From: Opitutaceae bacterium EW11
GTDB lineage: Bacteria > Verrucomicrobiota > Verrucomicrobiia > Opitutales > Opitutaceae
Assembly: GCA_003054665.1 (NCBI GenBank)
Contig: QAYY01000001.1
Location: forward strand, 795,501-859,500
Reading direction: 5' to 3'
Length of the DNA stretch: 64,000 nt
Positions 6,614 to 56,341 of this stretch are shown here, piece by piece. The position numbers and the translations under genes were made by a program. Numbering within the stretch: position 1 is the stretch's first letter; each line of letters begins with the position of its first letter. The notes under the pieces are model-generated. The model saw only the letters and a list, made by a program, of their open reading frames with translations, was not told the origin of the DNA and did no database searches.

Positions 6614-9082
6614 ATGACCGATCCCAGCCCTGATCCGCTCCCGCGTCTCCGGCCCGCGCAGGCCCGGGCGTTGAGGTCGCGTTTGCAGCGGCTGATCCAC
6701 GATGCGGGTCAAACCGACTTGGCGCCGGAAGCCGAATGTTTCTGGGAGCTAGATCCGACGCCTATTGTGATCTCAGCCGCCGAGTGGGGCAGCCTCTCCG
6801 CCGGCCTGATTCAGCGGGCACGGCTCGTCAATGCCCTACTGCGCGATCTCTATTCGTCCCAGGCCGCGCTTCGCCAGAAGGTGCTTCCGCCGGAGATGAT
6901 TCTGGGCGATCCGCACTACCGGCGCCCGTGCCTGAACCTCGAGCCGGATCGCGTCAGCCCGGCCACGTTGCTGCGCTTCGACCTGACCCGCGCCGGCTCC
7001 GAGTGGCTCGTCACCAGCACCTTCGCAAACACGCCGGTGGGCCTGAGCTACGCGGTGCAAAACCGGCGCTTCCTTTCGCAAGAGGCGCCGCATCTGTACG
7101 CGGCGCTGCCCGACTACGAGAGCATCATCAACACGCCGCTGCAGCTCCTCGACGCGCTCCGCCAGCTTTCGCCGCGCCGTCCGGCCCAAGCGTCCATCGT
7201 CGTGCTCACTGCGGGACCGCACGATCCGTTTTATTCCGAGCACAGCTTTCTCGCCCGGAAGATGGGCGTGCCGCTCGCGCGGGGCGACGACCTGCTGGTC
7301 CTGGACAATTGCGTCTATTTCAAAACCGTCGCCGGCCTCGAGCGCGTCGACGTGATCTACCGCCGCCTCGGTGACGCTCACATCGACCCCGTTGTTTTTC
7401 CCACTCTGCGCCAGGCCGCAGGCGTGCCCGGGCTCCTGCACTGCGTTCGTCGGCGCAGCGTCGTGGTCGCGAACGCGATCGGCTCGGGTCTCGCCGAAAA
7501 CCGCGCGATCGAGGCGTTCCTGCCGCAGCTCTGCCGCTTTTACCTGGGCGAAGACCTCCGGCTGCCCGGCATCCCGACGCACCTCTGCACCGACGCCGAT
7601 CAGCTCGATGCGCTCCGGGCGCGTTTCGGCGAACTACGGCTGAGAAACGTCCACCCGCCGGCCGCCCTCGCCGCCAACAATCGCCCGGAGTTCGAACTCG
7701 TGCTCAGGCGCGGCGAGGCGCTTCCGGCACACGTCGCGGCGGCGCCGTACGATTTCGTCGTCCAGGAAACGCCGCCCACTCCGGAGAAACGAAGGCCGAC
7801 CAACGCCGCCGTGACTTGGTCCGCGTTCGTGATCTCCCAGTCCAACGACGTCCGCGCGATGCCCGGCGGTCTCGTCCGCGTGCTGCCTGAAGTCGTCGCG
7901 TCGAGCCGCATCGGGCTCACCGCCGACCTCGTGGTCCTGCAAACGGCGCAGTCGCCGGAGCCCACCTGCCCCGACACCCCCCTGGCGCCCCCGCCGCGCA
8001 CGCCCCTCGGCTCGAGGACGGCGGAATCGCTGTATTGGCTGGGCCGTTACCTGGAACGCGCGGAGTCGACCGCACGCATGCTGTCGATCTTCGACGACGT
8101 CGCCCTGGAGGAGATTCCGGCGCGCGACCGCCGCAATTGGCTGCCGGTCTGGCAGGGCCTGCTCGAGGCCGCGGGCTACCTCGGCGAAAAACTTCCGCCC
8201 CACGGCGATCCTTCCGCCGTGCTTTCGGCCGCGCTCGCCTGGCGCATGGCTCTGGATGCCTCGCATCCGAGTTCGATCTATTCCTCCGTCCACGCCGCGG
8301 CCGAAAACGCGCGCCAGCTGCGCGACTGCATCAGCCCCGAGGTGTGGGTCGCGCTGAGTCATCTCGATGACGAACTCCAGAACCTGCTCCGCTCGAGCGC
8401 GGAGCAAACCGATCCGAAGGACCTGGAGGGCTCGGCCCGCGCCGCCGCACAGCACGTGGTCGGCGGGGTCAACGCCGTGTTGGGCACCGCCGAGCGCACG
8501 CTGCTGCAGGACGCCAGCTGGCGCTTCCTCCTTGTCGGCCTCCACCTCGAACGGGCCATCATGACCTGCAGCGCCCTCCGCCACAGTCTCGGCGCGCTCG
8601 AAAAGCAGGCGGCGACCGACCCGGGCGTCGCGGATCGCGATAATCCGGAGCTCTCCGCGCTCGTTCGCATGCTCGGTTCCCAGGACGCCTATCGCCGGCT
8701 TTATCGGGCACCCAGCCTGCCCCACTTTGTCACCGATTTCTTCCTACACCAGCCCGCCGCCCCGGGCAGCCTGCTGCACAACGTCAACCGGCTGGCGGAG
8801 CAGATCGACGCGGTGGCGCACGAACTCGGGGCGCGCAGCGGGCCCGACAAGTGCGCCCGGGCGGGGGTCGACGAAGTCCTGCGTTTCATGCAGCCGCTCC
8901 GGTTCGAACGCGACCGAGCCTCCGCCCCGCTCGCCGAGCAGCTCTCTCACCTCCTCCATCGGCTCTACGGACTGCACTCCGTCATCAGCGATCACTATTT
9001 CAGCCACCAGGGCAGGCTGCCCGCCGCCCCCCTGACCGTCGCTCAAGTGGAAAACGGCCCCTGCTCGCCGGCGACTTCCTGA
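6614..9082 (+). CDS. circularly permuted ATP-grasp protein fused to alpha-E domain
   Basis: The product has 822 residues from the ATG at 6614 (MTDPSPDP). Residues 1-470 match the circularly permuted type 2 ATP-grasp family (former DUF404/DUF407), with FELDPTP-like opening, DLTR, YRRLGDAHIDP, VVVANAIGSGLAENRA and FYLGEDLRLPGIPTH. The C-terminal about 300 residues, beginning near SRTAESLYWLGRYLERAESTARML, are an alpha-E (DUF403) helical domain. In many bacteria these are two neighbouring genes, usually with a transglutaminase-like gene, and are thought to form a peptide ligation or modification system. Here the two are one chain and no transglutaminase lies next to it. A SirB1-type transglutaminase-like gene is 27 kb away and unlikely to be its partner. 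Substrate unknown. Confidence 0.85.
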   Translation: MTDPSPDPLPRLRPAQARALRSRLQRLIHDAGQTDLAPEAECFWELDPTPIVISAAEWGSLSAGLIQRARLVNALLRDLYSSQAALRQKVLPPEMILGDPHYRRPCLNLEPDRVSPATLLRFDLTRAGSEWLVTSTFANTPVGLSYAVQNRRFLSQEAPHLYAALPDYESIINTPLQLLDALRQLSPRRPAQASIVVLTAGPHDPFYSEHSFLARKMGVPLARGDDLLVLDNCVYFKTVAGLERVDVIYRRLGDAHIDPVVFPTLRQAAGVPGLLHCVRRRSVVVANAIGSGLAENRAIEAFLPQLCRFYLGEDLRLPGIPTHLCTDADQLDALRARFGELRLRNVHPPAALAANNRPEFELVLRRGEALPAHVAAAPYDFVVQETPPTPEKRRPTNAAVTWSAFVISQSNDVRAMPGGLVRVLPEVVASSRIGLTADLVVLQTAQSPEPTCPDTPLAPPPRTPLGSRTAESLYWLGRYLERAESTARMLSIFDDVALEEIPARDRRNWLPVWQGLLEAAGYLGEKLPPHGDPSAVLSAALAWRMALDASHPSSIYSSVHAAAENARQLRDCISPEVWVALSHLDDELQNLLRSSAEQTDPKDLEGSARAAAQHVVGGVNAVLGTAERTLLQDASWRFLLVGLHLERAIMTCSALRHSLGALEKQAATDPGVADRDNPELSALVRMLGSQDAYRRLYRAPSLPHFVTDFFLHQPAAPGSLLHNVNRLAEQIDAVAHELGARSGPDKCARAGVDEVLRFMQPLRFERDRASAPLAEQLSHLLHRLYGLHSVISDHYFSHQGRLPAAPLTVAQVENGPCSPATS

Positions 9083-44278: not shown

Positions 44279-45247
44279 ATGACCGCCACCGAAAAGAAGC
44301 CCGCCACCTCCGCCGTGATCCTCGCGTTTGCGACGATCTACGTCGTCTGGGGCAGCACCTATCTCGGTATCCGCGTCGCGGTTGAAACCATTCCGCCGTT
44401 CGCCATGGCGTCGCTCCGATTCGCCGCCGCCGGGGCGATCCTCCTCGCCGCACTCCGCTTTCAGGGCGCGGCGTGGCCGACACCCCGGCAGTGGCGCGAC
44501 AACGCCGTCATCGGAGCCTTCCTCCTCCTGGGCGGAAACGGCCTGGTCGCGTGGGCCGAGCAGACCGTGCCTTCCGGCGTCACCGCTCTGCTGATCGGCG
44601 TGCAGCCTGTATTCATGGTCCTGACCGAGTGGGCGTGGCCCAAAGGCCAGCGGCCGAATCTCGCGATGTTCGTCGGCATGGCGCTCGGCTTCGTGGGAGT
44701 CGCCTGGATTGCCGCCCCTTGGCAGACCGTCGGAACTCAACGGATCGATATCGCCGGCGCACTGGCGGTGCTCGCCGCCTGCGCCCTTTGGGCCATCGGA
44801 TCGATTTACTCGCGCCACGCCAAACCCGCAGCGCCTCCGTTCGTCGCCGCCGCGGCGCAGATGCTCTGCGGCAGCGTGGCGCTGGCGAGCGTCGCTCTCA
44901 TCCGTGGCGAGTTCACGACCTTTCATCCCCTCGCTGCAAGCGCGCGCTCCTGGTGGGCGTTCACCTACCTCGTGCTCGTCGGATCGCTCGTGGGTTTCTC
45001 CACCTTCGTCTGGCTGATGAAACACAGCACGCCGGCCCGCGTTTCCACGTACGCCTACGTCAATCCGATCGTGGCGGTCTTCCTCGGCTGGCTGATCCTG
45101 AAGGAGCCGGTTTCCGCCCGCACTTTTTTCGGCGCCGGCATCATCATCGCAGCCGTGGCGATCGTCACGACCCAGAAGGCAAAGGCTCAACACGCCGCCG
45201 CGGCGCAGACGCCGGGCCCCGCGCAGCCTGTTCCGGCGCGCCGCTGA
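44279..45247 (+). CDS. EamA family drug/metabolite exporter, YedA/RhtA-like
   Basis: The product has 322 residues with ten hydrophobic segments in two EamA repeats. Landmarks are VVWGSTYLGIRVAVETIPPFAMASLRFAAAG and the second-repeat motif STPARVSTYAYVNPIVAVFLGWLILKEP. EamA transporters export amino acids, metabolites or drugs. It lies 40 bases after the MocR gene on the same strand and is probably co-transcribed. The C-terminal tail (Ala/Gln/Pro-rich) is cytoplasmic. Confidence 0.9.
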   Translation: MTATEKKPATSAVILAFATIYVVWGSTYLGIRVAVETIPPFAMASLRFAAAGAILLAALRFQGAAWPTPRQWRDNAVIGAFLLLGGNGLVAWAEQTVPSGVTALLIGVQPVFMVLTEWAWPKGQRPNLAMFVGMALGFVGVAWIAAPWQTVGTQRIDIAGALAVLAACALWAIGSIYSRHAKPAAPPFVAAAAQMLCGSVALASVALIRGEFTTFHPLAASARSWWAFTYLVLVGSLVGFSTFVWLMKHSTPARVSTYAYVNPIVAVFLGWLILKEPVSARTFFGAGIIIAAVAIVTTQKAKAQHAAAAQTPGPAQPVPARR

Positions 45248-45572
45248 GCGGCCGCGGACCTCCACCGGATTGGGCGAGAAATAGCCCTGCCAGTTGCGGT
45301 GGGGCACTCGAGCCGTACGGTTTCTAGCTTCTTTGTTCGTTTCGTAGGTCAGTCACGGCCGAGCGCTTACAAAGCTTGGCAGGCTACGGCAAGAGGGTTC
45401 ATAAACCATCCGCATAGTAGGGAAACAGACCAGTAGATTATCTTCTCGGTCCTCTTGACAGTTTCTGCGCGGTGTTGGCCAAATTCTGGCGAGTCCAGAA
45501 ATCGTGTTGGTTGTATCCTTAACACACTACAACCCGGGCGTGTCGTCCCGGAACTTCACCTAACCGTACCCC
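45248..45572. other. intergenic region before the electron-transfer cluster
   Basis: These 325 bases hold no gene. The second half is A/T-richer than its surroundings, with TTGACA at 45455-45460, and GTGTT (45504-45508) inverted with AACAC (45521-45525), and probably carries the promoter of the four-gene cytochrome cluster. No clear -10 box at the right distance. A sigma-54-like TTGGCA...GGC at 45376-45390 has a spacing one base too short. Confidence 0.45.
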
Positions 45573-46355
45573 ATGAAAAAAATCATCCGTCGCTGGAGCG
45601 CGAATACATGGATCTTCGGCGGTCTCGCAGCGTGGGGGCTCTTGACGGGCGCCTGCGTCATGGTCGATCGCCCGATGGTCGCTCCTCCGCAGATTGCTGG
45701 CGCCGTCTTTGTCGGCTCCAATGAGTGCAAGGAATGCCACGCCGACGTGACTCACACCTTCGGCGGCGCCACTCACGCCAACCTGAAGGCCCAGGGCGAC
45801 AACGCGAAGAACATCGGCTGCGAGTCGTGCCACGGCCCGGGCAGCAAGCACGTCGAGTCCGGCGGCGGAGCGGGTACGATCGTCAATCCGAAGACCTCGC
45901 CCGAAACCTGTTTCCAGTGCCACCTCGACAAACGCGCGGAGTTCCAGCTTCCCCACTCCCACCCGGTGGCCAGCGGAAAGATGACCTGCAGCGACTGCCA
46001 TGAGCCGCACAAGGACGATGCGGTGATCGGCGGCGGCACTCAGATGGCCTCGGCCAACGAGACCTGCTTCAAGTGCCACAGCGCGCAGCGCGGACCCTAC
46101 GTTTTCGAGCACGAAGCGAGCCGAGAGGGCTGCGTTTCCTGCCACAACCCGCACGGCACGGTGAACGACAAGATGCTGACCGCGCGCAACCAGGCGCTCT
46201 GCCTGCAGTGCCACAATCAGCAGCAAACCGTCGCCGGCCAGCTGATGATCGGCGGTCGCGATCACGCGGCCTTCGTCTCGCGCGGCACCTGCTGGACCGC
46301 CGGCTGCCACGAAGCCGTCCACGGCTCGCACGTCAGCTCCTCCCTCCGCTTCTAA
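45573..46355 (+). CDS. multihaem c-type cytochrome, DmsE/MtrA-like
   Basis: The product has 260 residues. The N-terminal segment LAAWGLLTGAC suggests a signal or lipoprotein anchor. Seven CXXCH haem sites are at C52, C83, C113, C139, C165, C187 and C210, and an eighth, spaced CX4CH (CWTAGCH), at C240. The C-terminus HEAVHGSHVSSSLRF, with a HGSxV motif, matches the DmsE/PioA/MtrA group of periplasmic multihaem electron carriers that sit inside an outer-membrane barrel. It is shorter than MtrA, which has ten haems. The barrel gene starts 18 bases after its stop (46374). Role: carry electrons through the outer membrane. Direction (oxidation or reduction of external substrates) is unknown. Confidence 0.88.
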   Translation: MKKIIRRWSANTWIFGGLAAWGLLTGACVMVDRPMVAPPQIAGAVFVGSNECKECHADVTHTFGGATHANLKAQGDNAKNIGCESCHGPGSKHVESGGGAGTIVNPKTSPETCFQCHLDKRAEFQLPHSHPVASGKMTCSDCHEPHKDDAVIGGGTQMASANETCFKCHSAQRGPYVFEHEASREGCVSCHNPHGTVNDKMLTARNQALCLQCHNQQQTVAGQLMIGGRDHAAFVSRGTCWTAGCHEAVHGSHVSSSLRF

Positions 46356-46373
46356 CCTTTGACCCCATCAGCC

Positions 46374-48419
46374 ATGCCAAGCCTTCGCTCTAGCGCCATC
46401 CTGGCGGCCCTGGCTACACCCCTTGCCTTGACCGCTCAGGTCTCCTCGACGGCCGCCGACAACGCCACCGTGGAAGGAACCGTTTCCGTCGCCGCCGGCG
46501 GCGCCATCCTCTCCGGACATCCCGGAGCTTATCAGCAGCAGTTCCAATCCCGGATGAACGGATTCGGCGGGATCGACGAACTCCGCTACAAACGGGAAAC
46601 CAAGACCGCGACGTTCCAGCTGGACGGCCGTTTCCTCCCCGGCGACGCCGACTACCTGCTCCACCTCCGCCTGAGCGGACAGGAGAAATGGTATGTGGAT
46701 GCCGGCTACAAGAACACCCGCGTCTGGTACGACGGCCTGGGCGGCTACTTCGCTCCGACCAACACGTCGTTCCACCTCTTCGACGAGTCGCTCTATGTCG
46801 ACCGCAGCGATGCCTGGGTCGAACTGGGCTGGGTCGCAGAGGATACTCCGTACCTGAAGATTCGGTACGACCACGAAACGCGCGACGGCTCGAAGGGCTC
46901 CACGATGTGGGGCGACACCAACCTCGTCGGGCGCTACGGTACCCGCAGCGTCGTGCCGTCGATCCAGAATATCGACGAGAAGCGGGATATCGTGACCGTC
47001 GACGCGGGAAAAGAAACGGAACAACAGACCTGGCAGGTCGGAGTGCGCTACGATCACTCCAGCCTCAACAATGGACGCATGGCCACGCGCCGGCCGCTTG
47101 AAAACGTCAGCCGCGCCGTCACGCAGAAGGACGACACGTCCACCGATCTGTTCAGCGCCCACGCGTTCACGGAACGCCGGTTCACCGAACAATTGACGAT
47201 GTCGACGGGCGGTTCGATCACGACGCTCGACACGAACCTCGACGGCAGCCGCATCTACGGCGCCGGCTACGATCCGGTCTTCGATCCCGCCTACGCCCAC
47301 CGGCAAGCGCGCGACGAAGGTTTTTACGATCTGTCCGGCGGTTCGGAGGTGAAGCAGTACGTCTTCAACTTCAACATCGTCTATCTCCCGGCGAAGAACT
47401 GGTCCATTCGGCCGAGCTTCCGATTCGAGGACATGACGCAGAACAACAGCGCGACGTTCGTCGAGACCAACATCGCGAGCAATCTGTCCGCGCAGCTCGA
47501 GGATCTCGCCTCCCAAAGCCACAAGCGCTGGGACGAGTTCACCGAAGCGGTCGACGTCCGCTACACGGGCCTCGCGAACGTGACCTTCAACTGGCGCGCC
47601 GAGCTCGTCCAGGGCACGGGTAACCTCTCCGAGCTGGAGGAGGCGGAAGAAACCGGAATCGCCTCGCTCTATCGCAAGACCGACATCTCCCGCGACACCC
47701 AGAAGTATTCGTTCACGAGCAACTGGTACGCCCGCCCGGGCCTGACCTTCGCGGCGCAGTATTACTATAAGGCCCGCAACAACGACTACACCAACCTCCG
47801 CGACTCCACGCCAGCGACCGGCGGCGACCGCTACCCGGGCTACATCGACTCGCAGGATTTCGCGACCAACGACTTCAATCTGCGCGTCTCCTGGCGCCCG
47901 ACGACGAAGGTCAGCCTCGTCACCCGCTACGACTACCAGCGCTCGAATGTGGATACGGCGGTGTTGCTGCTGCAGTCGGTCGAATCCGGCAAACTCACGA
48001 GCCACATCATCAGCGAGAACGTCACTTGGAATCCGATCAACCGCCTCTACATCGTGGGCAACGTGAACGTCGTGTACGACTCTCTCGCCACCCCGGCCGC
48101 GGCGTACGTGCGGAATTCGGACAACAACTACCTGAACGCCTCCCTCGGCGGCGGGTACGCCCTGGGCAAAATAACGGATGTCTACTTTGACTACTCGTTC
48201 TATCGCGCCAATGATTTCACCAACAACGCGTCGCAGACCCTCCCCTATGGCGCAGATCAAAAGCGCAACGTCGCCTCGCTCACCTGGGTTCGCCGCCAGT
48301 CGGAACGCCTGCTGTACACCGTCAAATACAGCTACGTCTCGTACGACGACCGCACTTCGGGCAACCGGGCCGACTTCAACGCCCATGTCCTGTACGGAAA
48401 AGTTCAATACCGCTTCTAG
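46374..48419 (+). CDS. MtrB/PioB-like outer-membrane porin of a porin-cytochrome conduit
   Basis: The product has 681 residues from the ATG at 46374 (MPSLRSSAILAALATPLALTAQ) with a signal peptide. It has no cysteine. The mature part shows many alternating strands (LLHLRLSGQEKWYVDAGYKNTRVWYDG, WQVGVRYDHSSLN, NFNIVYLPAKNWSIRPSFRFED, FTSNWYARPGLTFAAQYYYKARNNDY, VSLVTRYDYQRSN) and ends in Phe (HVLYGKVQYRF), so it is a large beta-barrel, about 26-28 strands by length. Size, and position between two multihaem cytochrome genes, fit MtrB/PioB, which insulates an MtrA-type wire. It lacks the CXXC near the N-terminus known in Shewanella MtrB. Confidence 0.85.
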   Translation: MPSLRSSAILAALATPLALTAQVSSTAADNATVEGTVSVAAGGAILSGHPGAYQQQFQSRMNGFGGIDELRYKRETKTATFQLDGRFLPGDADYLLHLRLSGQEKWYVDAGYKNTRVWYDGLGGYFAPTNTSFHLFDESLYVDRSDAWVELGWVAEDTPYLKIRYDHETRDGSKGSTMWGDTNLVGRYGTRSVVPSIQNIDEKRDIVTVDAGKETEQQTWQVGVRYDHSSLNNGRMATRRPLENVSRAVTQKDDTSTDLFSAHAFTERRFTEQLTMSTGGSITTLDTNLDGSRIYGAGYDPVFDPAYAHRQARDEGFYDLSGGSEVKQYVFNFNIVYLPAKNWSIRPSFRFEDMTQNNSATFVETNIASNLSAQLEDLASQSHKRWDEFTEAVDVRYTGLANVTFNWRAELVQGTGNLSELEEAEETGIASLYRKTDISRDTQKYSFTSNWYARPGLTFAAQYYYKARNNDYTNLRDSTPATGGDRYPGYIDSQDFATNDFNLRVSWRPTTKVSLVTRYDYQRSNVDTAVLLLQSVESGKLTSHIISENVTWNPINRLYIVGNVNVVYDSLATPAAAYVRNSDNNYLNASLGGGYALGKITDVYFDYSFYRANDFTNNASQTLPYGADQKRNVASLTWVRRQSERLLYTVKYSYVSYDDRTSGNRADFNAHVLYGKVQYRF

Positions 48420-48431
48420 TCCCTGATATCC

Positions 48432-48782
48432 ATGAAAGTCTCATCCTCGCTCCTCCTCGCGTCCGCCGGCCTGCTCTGTCTCAGCTCGGTCTCCTTCGCC
48501 GATCAGGCGCAGGAGAAGGCCAAGGAAAACTGGACCAAGATGTGCGCCCGCTGCCACGCGGCGGACGGCACCGGCAACACCAAGGTCGGCAAGAAACTGA
48601 ACGTGAAGGATTACACGTCCGCCGACGCTCAGGCCAAGATGACCGACGACGAGATGCTCAAGTCAGTTCTGGAAGGCGTGAAGGACGACAACGGCAAGGA
48701 GAAGATGCAGCCGTACAAGGAGAAGCTCACCGAGGCCGAAGCGAAGGACCTCGTCGCGCTGATCCGGTCGATGAAGAAGTAG
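48432..48782 (+). CDS. small monohaem cytochrome c
   Basis: The product has 116 residues with a signal peptide (SSVSFA-DQA). One haem site CARCH (38-42) follows the first helix, then HAADGTGNTKVGKKLNVKDYT and a likely distal Met in EKMQPYKEKLTEAEAKDLVALIRSMKK. This is a class I cytochrome c of c5/c552 size. It lies 13 bases after the porin stop and 13 bases before the ImcH-like gene, so it is co-transcribed. It is a good candidate for the periplasmic shuttle between the inner-membrane quinol dehydrogenase and the outer-membrane conduit. Confidence 0.92.
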   Translation: MKVSSSLLLASAGLLCLSSVSFADQAQEKAKENWTKMCARCHAADGTGNTKVGKKLNVKDYTSADAQAKMTDDEMLKSVLEGVKDDNGKEKMQPYKEKLTEAEAKDLVALIRSMKK

Positions 48783-48795
48783 TCGATCGGACAGC

Positions 48796-50301
48796 ATGAG
48801 CGGTGCCTCTCAAGATCCGGCGGGGTCGGCTTTGCCGCCCCGCCGTTCCATTTGGCGAAACTGGGTGACCCTTGCGGGCACCGTCGTCGCGGTCGGGAGC
48901 TTCTTTGCCTTCCTTCTTCTCTTCGCGATCGATACGTTCGGCCCCGGGCAGCACAACCCTTACCTGGGCATTCTGAGCTACCTGGTCGCGCCGGGCTTCC
49001 TCATCCTCGGCCTGGTTCTCGTTTTCGGCGGCGCGTGGTGGCAGCGCCGGCAACAGCATCTCTATCCCGAGCGTCCGGCGCCGACGCTCTCGATCGACTT
49101 GAGCCAGCCGAAGCAGCGCTGGCGGCTCTTCTGGTTCGGACTCGGCACGGTCACCTTCCTCCTCTGCACCGCGCTGGGAAGCTATCAGACCTACCACTAC
49201 ACCGAATCGGTTCAGTTCTGCGGTCAGGTCTGTCACACGGTGATGGAGCCCGAATTCGTCACCTACCAGCGCGGCAATCACGCCCGAGTAGCCTGCGTCG
49301 AGTGCCATATCGGCTCCGGCGCGACTTGGTACGTGAAATCCAAGCTGAGCGGCGCGTACCAGGTTTATTCGACCGCCTTCAACAAATACCACCGGCCCAT
49401 TGGCGCTCCGGTTGAGAACCTGCGCCCGGCGCAGGACACCTGCGAACGCTGCCACTGGCCCGAGAAGTTCGCGGGCAGTCTCGACCGCGTCTACAATCGC
49501 TTCCTCACCGATGAGAAAACGACGCCCTACACCGTCCGTCTTCTCCTCCACGTCGGCGGCGGCGCGTCCGCGCACGGTCCGGTCGGCGGCATCCACTGGC
49601 ACATGAACGTGGCGAACAAGGTCGAGTACCTCGCCACCGATACGCAGCGCCAGAAGATCCCGTGGGTCCGGGTCACGAGCCGCGAAGGCAAGGTCACCGT
49701 GTATCGCACGCCCGACTACAAAGGGGAGCCCGATCCCAAGGCTGTGCGGCGGATGGACTGCATCGACTGCCACAACCGCCCCGCTCACGCCTACCGCTCG
49801 CCGGACGACGCCGTCGACGAAGCCCTCTACCTCGGCCGCATCGACCGCAGCCTGACCTCGGTGAAGTACAACGTGGTCGAGCTGCTCACGAAGCCGTACA
49901 ACTCCGTCGAGGAAGCTTCCGCCGGAATCACGAACGGCCTGCGAAAGAAATACGGGGCGGACGCCAAGATCGACGGCACCATCGCCGAGGCGATCAGCAT
50001 CTACCAGCACAACTTCTTCCCGAAAATGAAGGCCGACTGGTCCAGTTACCCGAACAACCAGGGCCACAAGGACTCGGCCGGATGTTTCCGCTGCCACGAC
50101 AACAACCACATCGCGGAGGGTTCGAAGGAGAAGATCGCCGCCGGCGACTGCAATACGTGCCACACCATCCTCACCCAGGGCGAGGGCGCCGAGCTGATGA
50201 AACTCTCCGCCGACGGTCAGACGTTCAAACACCCGGGCGGCTCGTACTCCGACGACCTGATCTGCAGCGACTGCCACAACGGCAAACTGCAAGAACCGTG
50301 A
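48796..50301 (+). CDS. ImcH-like heptahaem NapC/NirT family quinol dehydrogenase
   Basis: The product has 501 residues. Three membrane helices are at about 20-47, 54-80 and 112-130. Seven haem sites follow: C142 (CGQVCH, CX3CH), C167, C216, C322, C430, C452 and C490 (all CXXCH). The first two with their spacing are the NapC/NrfH/CymA type quinol-oxidising core (FCGQVCHTVMEPE). Three helices and seven haems in a chain of about 500 residues is the architecture I know for Geobacter ImcH, an inner-membrane cytochrome that hands electrons from quinol to the periplasm when the acceptor potential is high. Here it lies in one unit with a monohaem cytochrome and a porin-cytochrome pair. Family assignment is firm, the ImcH subgroup is inference. 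Confidence 0.85.
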   Translation: MSGASQDPAGSALPPRRSIWRNWVTLAGTVVAVGSFFAFLLLFAIDTFGPGQHNPYLGILSYLVAPGFLILGLVLVFGGAWWQRRQQHLYPERPAPTLSIDLSQPKQRWRLFWFGLGTVTFLLCTALGSYQTYHYTESVQFCGQVCHTVMEPEFVTYQRGNHARVACVECHIGSGATWYVKSKLSGAYQVYSTAFNKYHRPIGAPVENLRPAQDTCERCHWPEKFAGSLDRVYNRFLTDEKTTPYTVRLLLHVGGGASAHGPVGGIHWHMNVANKVEYLATDTQRQKIPWVRVTSREGKVTVYRTPDYKGEPDPKAVRRMDCIDCHNRPAHAYRSPDDAVDEALYLGRIDRSLTSVKYNVVELLTKPYNSVEEASAGITNGLRKKYGADAKIDGTIAEAISIYQHNFFPKMKADWSSYPNNQGHKDSAGCFRCHDNNHIAEGSKEKIAAGDCNTCHTILTQGEGAELMKLSADGQTFKHPGGSYSDDLICSDCHNGKLQEP

Positions 50302-50340
50302 GCGGTTGCGCAGAGACGGCCTGTGCCCGAGTGTGAGCGC

Positions 50341-50928
50341 ATGCCGTCCGCGCCTTCCCAGCTTCAGGAACTTTTCGCACGGCGCGAGGAGTTCAAAGGT
50401 TTCCTCGCCAAGCGGCTCAAGGATTCGGCCGCGGCCGAAGACCTGCTGCAGGACAGCCTGGTGAAAGCGCTCCGCCACGCGGAGGATCTGCGCGACGGCG
50501 AAAAACTGACCGCATGGTTCTACCGCGTGCTTCGGAACGCCGCGACGGATTTCGCCCGCAGCCGCTCCGCCGCGCGAACGAGGGAAGAGGTTTGGGCGAT
50601 CGAGTCGGTCAATGAGCCGGAAGCCGAACGCCAGATCTGCCGCTGCTTCGAGGGACTGCTCGGCACGCTCAAGCCCATGCAAGCCGAGCTGCTTCAGAAG
50701 GTGGAGTTCGAAGGCGAGTCAGTGGCGGAGGCCGCGGCGCGACTCGGGATCACGCCCAACCACGCCAGCGTGAATCTGCACCGAGCGCGCCTCGAACTGC
50801 GCAAACGACTCGAAGCGTTTTGTGGTGACTGCTCCGCCGCTGCGTGCCTCGACTGCGAATGCGCTCCTCCGGACGCCAAGCGGCAGCCGAAAAAGAAACG
50901 AGCGCCGCAAGAAGCCGAAGACCTGTAA
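50341..50928 (+). CDS. CorE-like ECF sigma factor with C-terminal cysteine-rich domain
   Basis: The product has 195 residues from the ATG at 50341. Sigma-2 is at 20-78 ([41 protein letters not shown]) and sigma-4 at 108-158 ([29 protein letters not shown]). A CxC motif sits in the linker (C100, C102) and five cysteines form the tail: C161, C164, C169, C172, C174. This combination is what I recall of the CorE (ECF44) group from Myxococcus, where the cysteines bind copper and switch the sigma factor without an anti-sigma factor. A copper P-type ATPase begins 31 bases after its stop, which fits well. It starts 39 bases after the ImcH-like gene and has no anti-sigma gene beside it. Confidence 0.85.
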
Positions 50929-50959
50929 GGTTCCAAAAACTACTCCGTCTGCAGGGTAT

Positions 50960-52996
50960 ATGCACGGTCACACGCACACACATTCGCACGAGTCCGAAAT
51001 GGGCGGCGAAACGCCCGCCCCCGACGCGCCGGTTTACATGGGACTTCCGGACGCCCGCTACCTGCTTCGCCGATTCTGGGTGGCGCTGACGCTCAGTCTG
51101 CCGGTCGCGTTTCTCGCCATGGCGGAGATGTTTCCCTCTGCCCATGCCTGGCTGCCGGCACCCGATGTCTCGGGATGGATCCAGGGCGTGCTGACGACCC
51201 CGGTGTTTTTCTGGGCCGGAGCGCCTTTCATCCGACGGTGGTGGATCTCGCTCCGCGAGCGCGACACGAACATGTTCACGCTCATCGTCACGGGCACAGG
51301 CGCCGCTTATTTCTACAGCGTGGCGGCGCTTCTCTTCGGCGACCGTTTTCCCGCGGCGTTGCAGGGGACGCATGGAGTGCCCCTCTATTTCGAAGCCGCC
51401 GCGGTGATCACAACCATCGTGCTCATCGGCCAAGTGCTGGAACAGCGGGCTCACGCCCGAACCGGCGCCGCAATCGAAGCGCTCATGCACCTCGCCCCCG
51501 CCGTCGCCCACCGGATCCGCGACGGTCGCGAGGAGGACGTGCCTGTGGCGGACGTGGCCGTGGGCGACGCCCTGCGGGTTCGCCCGGGCGAAAAGATCCC
51601 GGTGGACGGCAGGGTCGTCGAAGGCAGCAGCGCAGTCGATGAAGCCATGCTGACCGGCGAGCCCATGCCGGTCACGAAAACGGCGGGAGACGCCGTCAGC
51701 GGCGGCACGCTCAACACGACCGGCAGCTTCGTTTTCCGCGCGGAGCGCGTGGGCCGGGACACGCTCCTCGCGCACATCATCCAACTCGTCGAGGAGGCGC
51801 AGGAAAGCGAGGCGCCCATCCAGCGCCTCGCGGATCGCGTATCGAACTTCTTCGTACCGGCGGTCGCGGGCGCGGCGCTGGTGACGTTTGTGCTCTGGTT
51901 GACGATTGGTCCAGAACCCCGGTTTATCCACGCGCTCGTCAACGCCGTTGCGGTGTTGATCATCGCCTGCCCCTGCGCGCTCGGCCTCGCCACTCCGGTT
52001 TCGCTCGTCACCGGCATCGGGCGCGGCGCCCAGGCTGGCGTGCTCGTCCGGAACGCGGAGGCGCTGGAACGGCTTTCGTACGTCGACACACTGCTGATCG
52101 ACAAGACAGGCACGCTGACGGAAGGCAAACCGCAGGTCGTCGAGATTGTCCCGGAGCCAAGCTTCGACGTGAACCGCGTGCTCGAGCTTGCCGCGGCCGC
52201 CGAGTCGCCGAGCGAACACCCGCTGGCGCGGGCGATCGTCGGCAAAGCGCGGGCCGAAGGCATCGAATGGGAATCTCCGGCCGACTTCGCCGCGGAACCG
52301 GGTTTCGGCGTCACCGCTCGCGCGGGCGGGAGCAAGGTCGCCGTAGGCCGCGCCGCAGGCAGCGAACCGGGTGACCGCGAGCCGCGCACGCGCGTCGCGG
52401 TCAGCGTCGAAGGGCGGCTCGCCGGCACGATTCTCCTCGCCGACCCGATCAAGGAGTCCAGCGCCCCGGCAGTCGCCGAACTGCACCGGCTTGGGCTGAA
52501 GGTCGTGATGGTGACCGGCGACGAGGAAAGGGTGGCGCGCGCCGTGGCCGACAAACTCGGCCTCGACGAAGTCCACGCCCGGACAACTCCCGCGCGGAAA
52601 CAGGAAATCGTACGCCAGCTGCGCGCCGCCGGGCGCCGGGTCGCTTTTGCCGGCGACGGAATCAACGACGCCCCTGCGCTCGCCGCAGCCGAAGTGGCGA
52701 TCGCGATGGGCACCGGGGCCGACGTGGCGATGGCGTCCGCGGGTCTCGTGCTCGTGAAGGGCGACCTGCGCGGGCTGGTGCGCGCCGTACACCTGAGCCG
52801 CGGCGTCCTGGGCAACATCCGGCAGAACCTGTTCCTTGCCTTCGTCTACAACGGCCTCGGCATCCCGATCGCCGCCGGTGTGCTGTACCCCGTCGCCGGC
52901 TGGCTGCTCAACCCGATGCTCGCCGGCGTGGCGATGAGCCTCAGCTCGATCAGCGTCGTTTCGAACGCCCTTCGGCTGCGCCGGCTGAAGCTGTAG
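50960..52996 (+). CDS. Cu(I)-exporting P1B-type ATPase, without HMA domain
   Basis: The product has 678 residues from the ATG at 50960, the first Met after the sigma factor stop. The N-terminus is His-rich ([12 protein letters not shown]) and replaces the usual HMA metal-binding domain. Core motifs: [16 protein letters not shown] (CPC in TM6), DKTGTLTEG (phosphorylated Asp), [10 protein letters not shown] (nucleotide domain HP), [11 protein letters not shown], and the last helices [11 protein letters not shown] and [18 protein letters not shown], which match the P1B-1 Cu(I) type. So it should pump Cu(I) from the cytosol to the periplasm. Cotranscription with the CorE-like sigma gene suggests copper-induced expression. 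Confidence 0.9.
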
Positions 52997-55894: not shown

Positions 55895-56341
55895 ATGAAA
55901 ACCGTCGCCCTACTCTCGCTCGCTCTCGCCTTCCTCGGACTGGTCGGCTGCAGCACCGTGCACAGCCGGATCGAAGAGAAGGCGGCCGTATTCAACTCCC
56001 TCGATCCGCAGACGCAGGCGCGCATTCGCCAGGGGTTGGTCGATATCGGCTATACCGAGGACATGGTGTACATCGCGATGGGCCGGCCGGACGAAACCAA
56101 GGAGCACATGACCGCGAAGGGGCGTGAGACCACCTGGATCTACAACTCCTACTGGCAGGAGTATGAAGGCAGCCGGCTGGTCGGCTTCCACCGGGTCATC
56201 TACTTCGACAAGGTCGCCCGCGCCTACCGGGTCTTCTACGAGCCCGTTCGCGCCGAGATGTACAGCGACCGCGTCGAAGAACGCACCCGCGTGATGTTCA
56301 AGGACGGCAAAGTCACCGCCATCGAACAGGCGAAAAACTAG
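55895..56341 (+). CDS. BamE/SmpA-like small lipoprotein, hypothetical
   Basis: The product has 148 residues from the ATG at 55895 (MKTVALLSLALAFLGLVGCS). The lipobox LVGC gives a lipid-anchored Cys at 19. The mature part LDPQTQARIRQGLVDIGYTEDMVYIAMGRPDETKE, then TTWIYNSYWQEY and a basic beta segment, resembles the fold of the SmpA/OmlA/BamE domain (helix-helix-three strands), with the typical GYTxDxVxxxMGxPD-type opening. It may help outer-membrane protein assembly, but the match is weak. A six-bp stem-loop (GCCCGA...TCGGGC) lies at the stop, without a T run. Confidence 0.7.
   Translation: MKTVALLSLALAFLGLVGCSTVHSRIEEKAAVFNSLDPQTQARIRQGLVDIGYTEDMVYIAMGRPDETKEHMTAKGRETTWIYNSYWQEYEGSRLVGFHRVIYFDKVARAYRVFYEPVRAEMYSDRVEERTRVMFKDGKVTAIEQAKN

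Follow-up and report, generated by a model that had tools for sequence, protein, structure and literature searches.

CorE-type sigma factors combine a metal sensor and a sigma factor in one molecule, and few examples have been worked out. The reference protein, CorE of Myxococcus xanthus (MXAN_3426), is a copper-dependent ECF sigma factor (former ECF44, near ECF238) with the order sigma2, CxC linker, sigma4 and C-terminal CRD, and has several targets (cuoB, copB, MXAN_3427 and perhaps copA). PMC3107203 describes CorE as having no anti-sigma gene and a copper ATPase among its targets; its invariant CRD cysteines are 181, 184, 192 and 194, and Cys189, present in 11 of the 21 proteins listed, is the main residue for activation by copper. 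In the same source, CorE promoters have a distance of 16-18 between the AAC of the -35 and the G of the -10, and the list of CRD sigma factors includes two Verrucomicrobia, of which Opitutus terrae (Oter_1731) is one. M. xanthus also has CorE2, a Cd/Zn sigma factor. According to PMC9023288, the CorE motif is C184-x4-C-x2-C-x-C, and that of CorE2 contains an adjacent Cys pair (173-174), the second of which sets the Cd/Zn specificity. CorE itself is unclassified in the new ECF scheme, according to PMC8999054.

The stretch of DNA analyzed here, 64 kb in length and referred to as the window, encodes on its + strand a 195-aa CorE-type ECF sigma factor (50341..50928). The ORF starts with ATG; a GTG upstream at 50323 would add 6 aa. 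Pfam matched sigma2 and sigma4 only (Sigma70_r2, 6.2e-13; Sigma70_r4_2, 6.4e-8). The linker between the two carries the CxC (C100-R-C102), and sigma4 is followed by a C-terminal CRD, C161-x2-C164-x4-C169-x2-C172-x-C174. All seven cysteines, two in the linker and five in the tail, are invariant across an alignment of nine CorE-like proteins, and the pattern is therefore more than chance. An earlier note on this DNA had described a 195-residue ECF sigma factor with a linker CxC and five clustered tail cysteines, and the ORF, the Pfam matches and the alignment bear this out. The gaps it had given also match the coordinates: the ImcH-like gene ends at 50301, 39 bases before the sigma start, and 31 bases separate the sigma stop from the ATPase ATG at 50960. 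It had further noted the lack of an anti-sigma gene, and we found no anti-sigma domain with Pfam in the eight proteins scanned (the sigma factor, the ATPase and six neighbors).

Cysteine layout and tree support the assignment of the predicted protein to the CorE type, the family named in the earlier note. Compared via the published CorE positions, the tail spacing is that of C181/184/189/192/194. C161, C164, C172 and C174 correspond with identical spacing to the four invariant CRD cysteines of CorE, and C169 is the equivalent of Cys189. CorE differs in having a sixth Cys in its 38-residue tail, whereas the window tail has five. Note that this spacing is not kept by every CorE-like protein, differing in G072a. 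For the tree, the CRD was trimmed away and the sigma2-sigma4 core kept; M. xanthus CorE was not among the rows. The window protein, those of Verrucomicrobiota and Nitrospirota and the published proteins of R. litoralis, Roseovarius TM1035 and P. zucineum formed one clade (support 100/99) that excludes SigZ and the remaining ECF rows. The clade contains a single further row, G003b, a sigma gene from which both CRD and CxC have been lost. SigZ was the best NCBIfam match (TIGR02959), at 92.2 bits far under the cut-off of 168.65, and this identity was rejected; the Priestia SigZ compared has neither CxC nor CRD, unlike the window protein. A PDB search returned six ECF-type sigma factor sequences, none named CorE, and an AlphaFold model of the sigma factor (four sequences) had a mean pLDDT of 54.3, too poor for placing the cysteines.

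The gene behind the sigma factor (50960..52996, + strand) encodes a 678-aa Cu(I)-type P1B ATPase with a His-rich N terminus and a CPC motif, as assigned by TIGR01511 and Pfam. The score for TIGR01511 (copper-translocating P-type ATPase) was 581.5 against a curated cut-off of 397, and the copper ATPase proposed in the earlier note to lie 3' of the sigma gene is thus borne out. An HMA domain was absent in the Pfam scan, with the His-rich start in its place. An N-terminal HMA domain is common in P1B-1 copper ATPases, but not universal.

CorE2 shares group and layout with the window sigma factor, and the sensed metal differs among CorE-like proteins, CorE itself being weakly responsive to Cd and Zn (PMC3107203). 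The window sigma factor might accordingly sense Zn/Cd, like CorE2, or another metal that the ATPase would serve. We consider this improbable: the tail has the CorE motif, with the Cys189 equivalent and without the adjacent Cys pair of CorE2 (motifs as in PMC9023288), and the ATPase exceeds the copper cut-off. Copper genes also lie near several plasmid relatives, though not all. In a comparison of eight named plasmid stretches, each with a CorE-like gene, they are annotated in those of Manganitrophus, Pseudohalocynthiibacter, Roseovarius indicus and Roseobacter litoralis; none are annotated in three (P. zucineum, Indioceanicola and Roseovarius AK1035), and the eighth stretch carries no annotation.

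We collected 20 discovery loci with CorE from Verrucomicrobiota and then 39 later loci from the family (39 of 41 new places), 59 in total. Two of the 55 CorE places in the family, G466:C288 and G480:C165, were left out of the later set, L227 was dropped as a repeat of L030, and G003b, CorE-like without a CRD, stood outside the 20 discovery loci. CorE has an ATPase of the same kind within 2 kb at 19/20 discovery and 29/39 later loci (48/59 overall), and none within this distance at the other 11/59. The two genes are codirectional at 35 of the 48 loci, convergent at 8 and divergent at 5. On the ATPase tree, CorE adjacency requires 11 changes, at least 10 of them forced by well supported branches. 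By gene order and tree, the pair is a conserved unit, rebuilt in three arrangements with ATPases of separate branches.

When GGAAC/TGAAC was tried as the -35 element upstream of the sigma and ATPase genes, matches were scattered with no site in common, and this candidate was rejected. In the ATPase upstream regions used for that search, TGTAAG-N16-CGTC was recognized by eye. We call this predicted ECF-type promoter motif before the ATPase, new here, the CorE box, and define it as GTAAS-N16-CGTN, with a strict form GTAAG-N16-CGTC and a form in Opitutaceae that is mostly TGTAAGRT-N13-CCGTCT. The definition was derived from the discovery set, and the 39 later loci served as its test. Searches of the open-licence literature brought up neither a description of a CorE box in Verrucomicrobiota nor a paper that treats copper together with the regulation of ImcH. 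The window box (TGTAAG-N16-CGTC, 50924..50949, + strand), predicted from motif, PWM and conservation, is the sole match to GTAAS-N16-CGTN on both strands of the 64 kb. The sigma stop codon TAA (50926-50928) lies inside its -35 element, and 10 bases separate its CGTC from the ATPase ATG. With a PWM made from 54 distinct strict boxes of 50 loci, the window excluded, this site scored 27.7 bits and the second-best window site 8.1. The spacing falls in the published range of 16-18, while the -35 is AAG rather than the AAC of M. xanthus CorE promoters. Allowing one mismatch, the 26-base pattern is no rarer in the window than in shuffles, so the weight of the box rests on its conservation.

Within 1500 bases upstream, GTAAS-N16-CGTN was present at 15/16 discovery ATPases (10/16 strict), an in-sample figure, and at 28/29 later-set ATPases beside CorE (27 strict). 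Homologous ATPases not beside CorE had no box in 25 controls and 5 further cases (0/30). The difference between the later set and the 25 controls gives a Fisher p of 1.5e-14, not corrected for kinship; many of the loci share a genus with others, genera being unevenly sampled, and the counts therefore overstate independence. Note that L030, L037 and L038 were left out of the box test because their stretches stop short of the DNA upstream of the ATPase, that one of the 38 ATPase places, G011, with 13 bases upstream only, was likewise left out, and that two control ATPases (one each of G034 and G007) belong to genomes with CorE elsewhere. Two CorE-linked ATPases, L121 and L263, are without a box, and none occurs anywhere in 12/59 stretches (L030, L037, L038, L121, L242, L245, L248, L253, L262, L264, L265 and L266). 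With other spacers, the strict pattern nearly vanished from the 39 later loci: N16 gave 39 matches, and each of N10-15 and N17-22 gave 0-2. When ten independent pairs were drawn from the ATPase tree, with the degenerate sigma of G003b taken as CorE, presence of the box agreed with that of CorE in 9.9/10 on average (200 pairings; p ~0.002).

The promoter role of the box is deduced from geometry alone, and the box might instead be the operator of an unrelated copper regulator, with CorE merely traveling along. This is very improbable in our view, given that the box is not palindromic, that a fixed 16-base spacer separates its -35-like and -10-like blocks and that its presence tracks CorE on the ATPase tree.

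In a scan of 28 genomes, GTAAGRT-N13-CCGTC was found in 11/11 genomes with CorE (19 matches) and in 2/17 without (2 matches), compared to 7 and 16 matches, respectively, for the reversed control. Fourteen of the 19 matches lie at CorE-like loci; a site common to G210 and G222 and sites of G015, G021 and G034 have no clear target. Of the three matches in the window's genome, only that at the ATPase is followed by a gene start, and in this the genome differs from the M. xanthus system with its several targets. The looser TGTAAG-N16-CGTC gave 4 matches in this genome versus 5 and 8 for the reversed control, and so is not enriched by itself. The following sites were not accepted as targets: C4:179953 and C19:57802 are each internal to a long open frame, and within 70 bases of them no frame of 40 codons opens with ATG; C11:1049197 is antisense within a gene with sigma-70 regions 2, 3 and 4; and C11:987197 is followed, 52 bases away, by just a GTG frame. 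Copper control of the ATPase, as anticipated in the earlier note, is well supported as a prediction by the conserved box between the two genes and by the co-occurrence of box and CorE.

We also analyzed what else stands behind the box in relatives. In L035, L116 and L119 the gene directly before CorE is an RND efflux gene (Pfam ACR_tran in L035), and an extra box lies on the CorE strand ~5 kb upstream of the sigma gene; these boxes would head operons that end with CorE. An RND gene directly precedes CorE at 12/59 loci, four of the genes being 29-41% identical to that of L035, and a box lies upstream of it in 3/12 such loci, within the sequence covered. At ten loci (L035, L116, L117, L235, L236, L238, L239, L240, L246 and L247) the box is followed by a Cys-rich peptide of 52-62 aa (CGCxxCxC...CRCHxxNALLALALWD), a candidate metal-binding protein; two of these peptides were tested and had no Pfam or NCBIfam match. 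RND efflux genes and Cys-rich peptides behind the box fit a predicted metal regulon, most simply one for copper. They are new candidate targets suggested by the box, and a clear promoter motif for this branch of the Verrucomicrobiota could make copper regulons readable from sequence. Some boxes (in L232, L233, L234, L240 and L244) precede other genes.

Several loci show other arrangements. L118, the sole discovery locus without an ATPase, has a box (6737, +) followed by a 56-aa peptide with 11 Cys and then the sigma gene, in which the tail spacing is altered. In L039 (G003:C1:5678000-5694000), a second CorE-like sigma gene (7607-8191) has lost CRD and CxC and the ATPase keeps its box (8194, +); the other, intact CorE of that genome may now act on it in trans. 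L042, a Manganitrophus plasmid, carries tandem GTAAC-N16-CGTC boxes (8699 and 8755, +) 3' of the CorE-like gene; they precede a P-type ATPase that matches in pieces only.

The start codon follows CGTC by 8-11 bases in 17/31 boxes that have a long frame with an ATPase or efflux signature behind them, and the recurring His-rich starts of the encoded proteins (30 residues, not shown) argue that these ATGs are real. Transcription from ECF promoters begins some 6 to 8 bases past the -10 element. Together, the two distances point to an ATPase mRNA that would be leaderless or nearly so.

We consider it probable that the window locus is a self-contained copper switch made of a copper-activated sigma factor, one box promoter and the ATPase, with the neighboring conduit genes not a target. 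The sigma factor would be made without copper and become competent when the cysteines of CRD and CxC bind copper. It would then direct RNA polymerase to the single promoter at 50924-50949, which overlaps its own stop codon. The ATPase mRNA would start at the ATG or within a few bases, and the ATPase would export Cu(I) from the cytoplasm, ending the signal. Sequence comparison shows the family, the Cys layout, the box with its co-occurrence with CorE and the lack of a box at the conduit. From these we infer that the box is CorE's promoter and, by analogy with CorE, that the metal is copper, and likewise the direction of the switch, the transcription start and the direction of efflux. The locus would thus be a minimal one-promoter copper switch.

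The conduit genes end directly upstream. The last of them (48796..50301, + strand) encodes an ImcH-like, NapC/NirT-type multihaem c-type cytochrome identified with Pfam; the rest (45573..48782, + strand), considered here as neighbors only, encode a multihaem cytochrome, a presumed barrel of 679 aa without a Pfam match and a c-type cytochrome. Note that the protein encoded at 45573-46355 matches decahaem cytochrome families, yet 7 CxxCH were counted in it; the ImcH-like protein has 6. The earlier note had suggested that copper perhaps also controls the conduit, and had proposed looking for one motif common to the regions upstream of 45573 and 50341. A copper-activated CorE that also switches on the conduit genes is favored by position, at 39 bases and on the same strand, and is highly unlikely on the remaining evidence. 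The shared motif was not found; the motif precedes the ATPase instead. On the + strand, the best PWM score before the conduit (45100-45572) was -12.9 bits, compared to 27.7 at the ATPase, and before the sigma gene (50000-50341) it was -8.9 bits. Conduit genes occur at 1/59 CorE loci, the window itself (the other stretches span 3.5 to 19.5 kb). Because there is no box before conduit or sigma gene and the conduit stands at a single CorE locus, copper control of the conduit, judged from sequence, is not supported, and this tempting link is removed.

A survey of 252 genomes of the family (ImcH-like, E <=1e-100; CorE, E <=1e-40) points the same way. ImcH-like genes were found in 103/252 genomes, CorE in 49/252 and both in 23, with ~20 expected if the two were independent. 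In these 23 genomes the two lie on different contigs in 20 and >1 Mb apart in G003 and G516, and adjoin only in the window. The CorE copy of G003, which we take to be perhaps Oter_1731 of Opitutus terrae, would be a close comparison: also from the Opitutaceae, it is 53% identical to the window protein and stands beside an ATPase of the same kind with the same box. It has no conduit beside it, unlike the window, the ImcH-like gene of G003 being ~1.2 Mb away. Among ImcH-like loci of 35 other genomes, 32 had ~1.5 kb or more of sequence downstream; CorE followed at 0/32 and the ATPase at 1/32. This single case, in G009 (L086, G009:C23:7000-22000), has genes for a cytochrome c, the ImcH-like protein, the ATPase and a lipoprotein in a row, with about 100 bases between ImcH-like gene and ATPase and with neither sigma gene nor box. 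On the ATPase tree it groups with G024, not with the window. As this second ImcH-ATPase adjacency is without CorE, it is not a CorE link; the association, found twice, may be old or accidental.

The sigma gene itself has no box before it here, whereas L035, L116 and L119 have one ~5 kb upstream, and the conduit operon may therefore supply the sigma factor. According to this companion reading, CorE would be carried on the conduit transcript and copper export armed only when the conduit is expressed. It is compatible with the copper switch set out above, since it concerns the source of the sigma factor. The 39-base gap, the lack of a terminator-like site on the + strand of 49900-51100 and the recurrence of the ImcH-ATPase adjacency in G009 are in its favor, while the co-occurrence of CorE and ImcH-like genes close to that expected by chance, and their adjacency in the window alone, are not. 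A promoter inside the ImcH-like gene is also possible: scans for sigma-70 promoters before the conduit and around the sigma gene found nothing, a weak test in Verrucomicrobiota. Folding of the gap between ImcH-like and sigma genes gave no more structure than in shuffles. Read-through from the conduit would be the simplest source, although we hold the reading as a whole only tentatively, and in the preferred copper switch the sigma gene is probably read either from the conduit operon or from an unrecognized promoter in the ImcH-like gene. With read-through, copper defence would hinge on expression of the conduit, opposite to the direction of control drawn in the earlier note.

A fuller version, which we regard as rather unlikely, joins a one-promoter regulon, a promoter lying partly in the stop codon of its own sigma gene, a leaderless pump mRNA and a sigma supply moved to an operon for extracellular electron transfer. 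If true, the sigma factor would once have been supplied by a self-reinforcing copper operon, the arrangement of some relatives, and would now be supplied by the conduit operon, and respiration through the conduit would arm copper defence.

Further downstream in the window, a lipoprotein-like gene of 148 aa (55895..56341, + strand), without a family match above cut-off, recurs close to ATPases of this kind in other genera; in L036 it stands between CorE and the ATPase.
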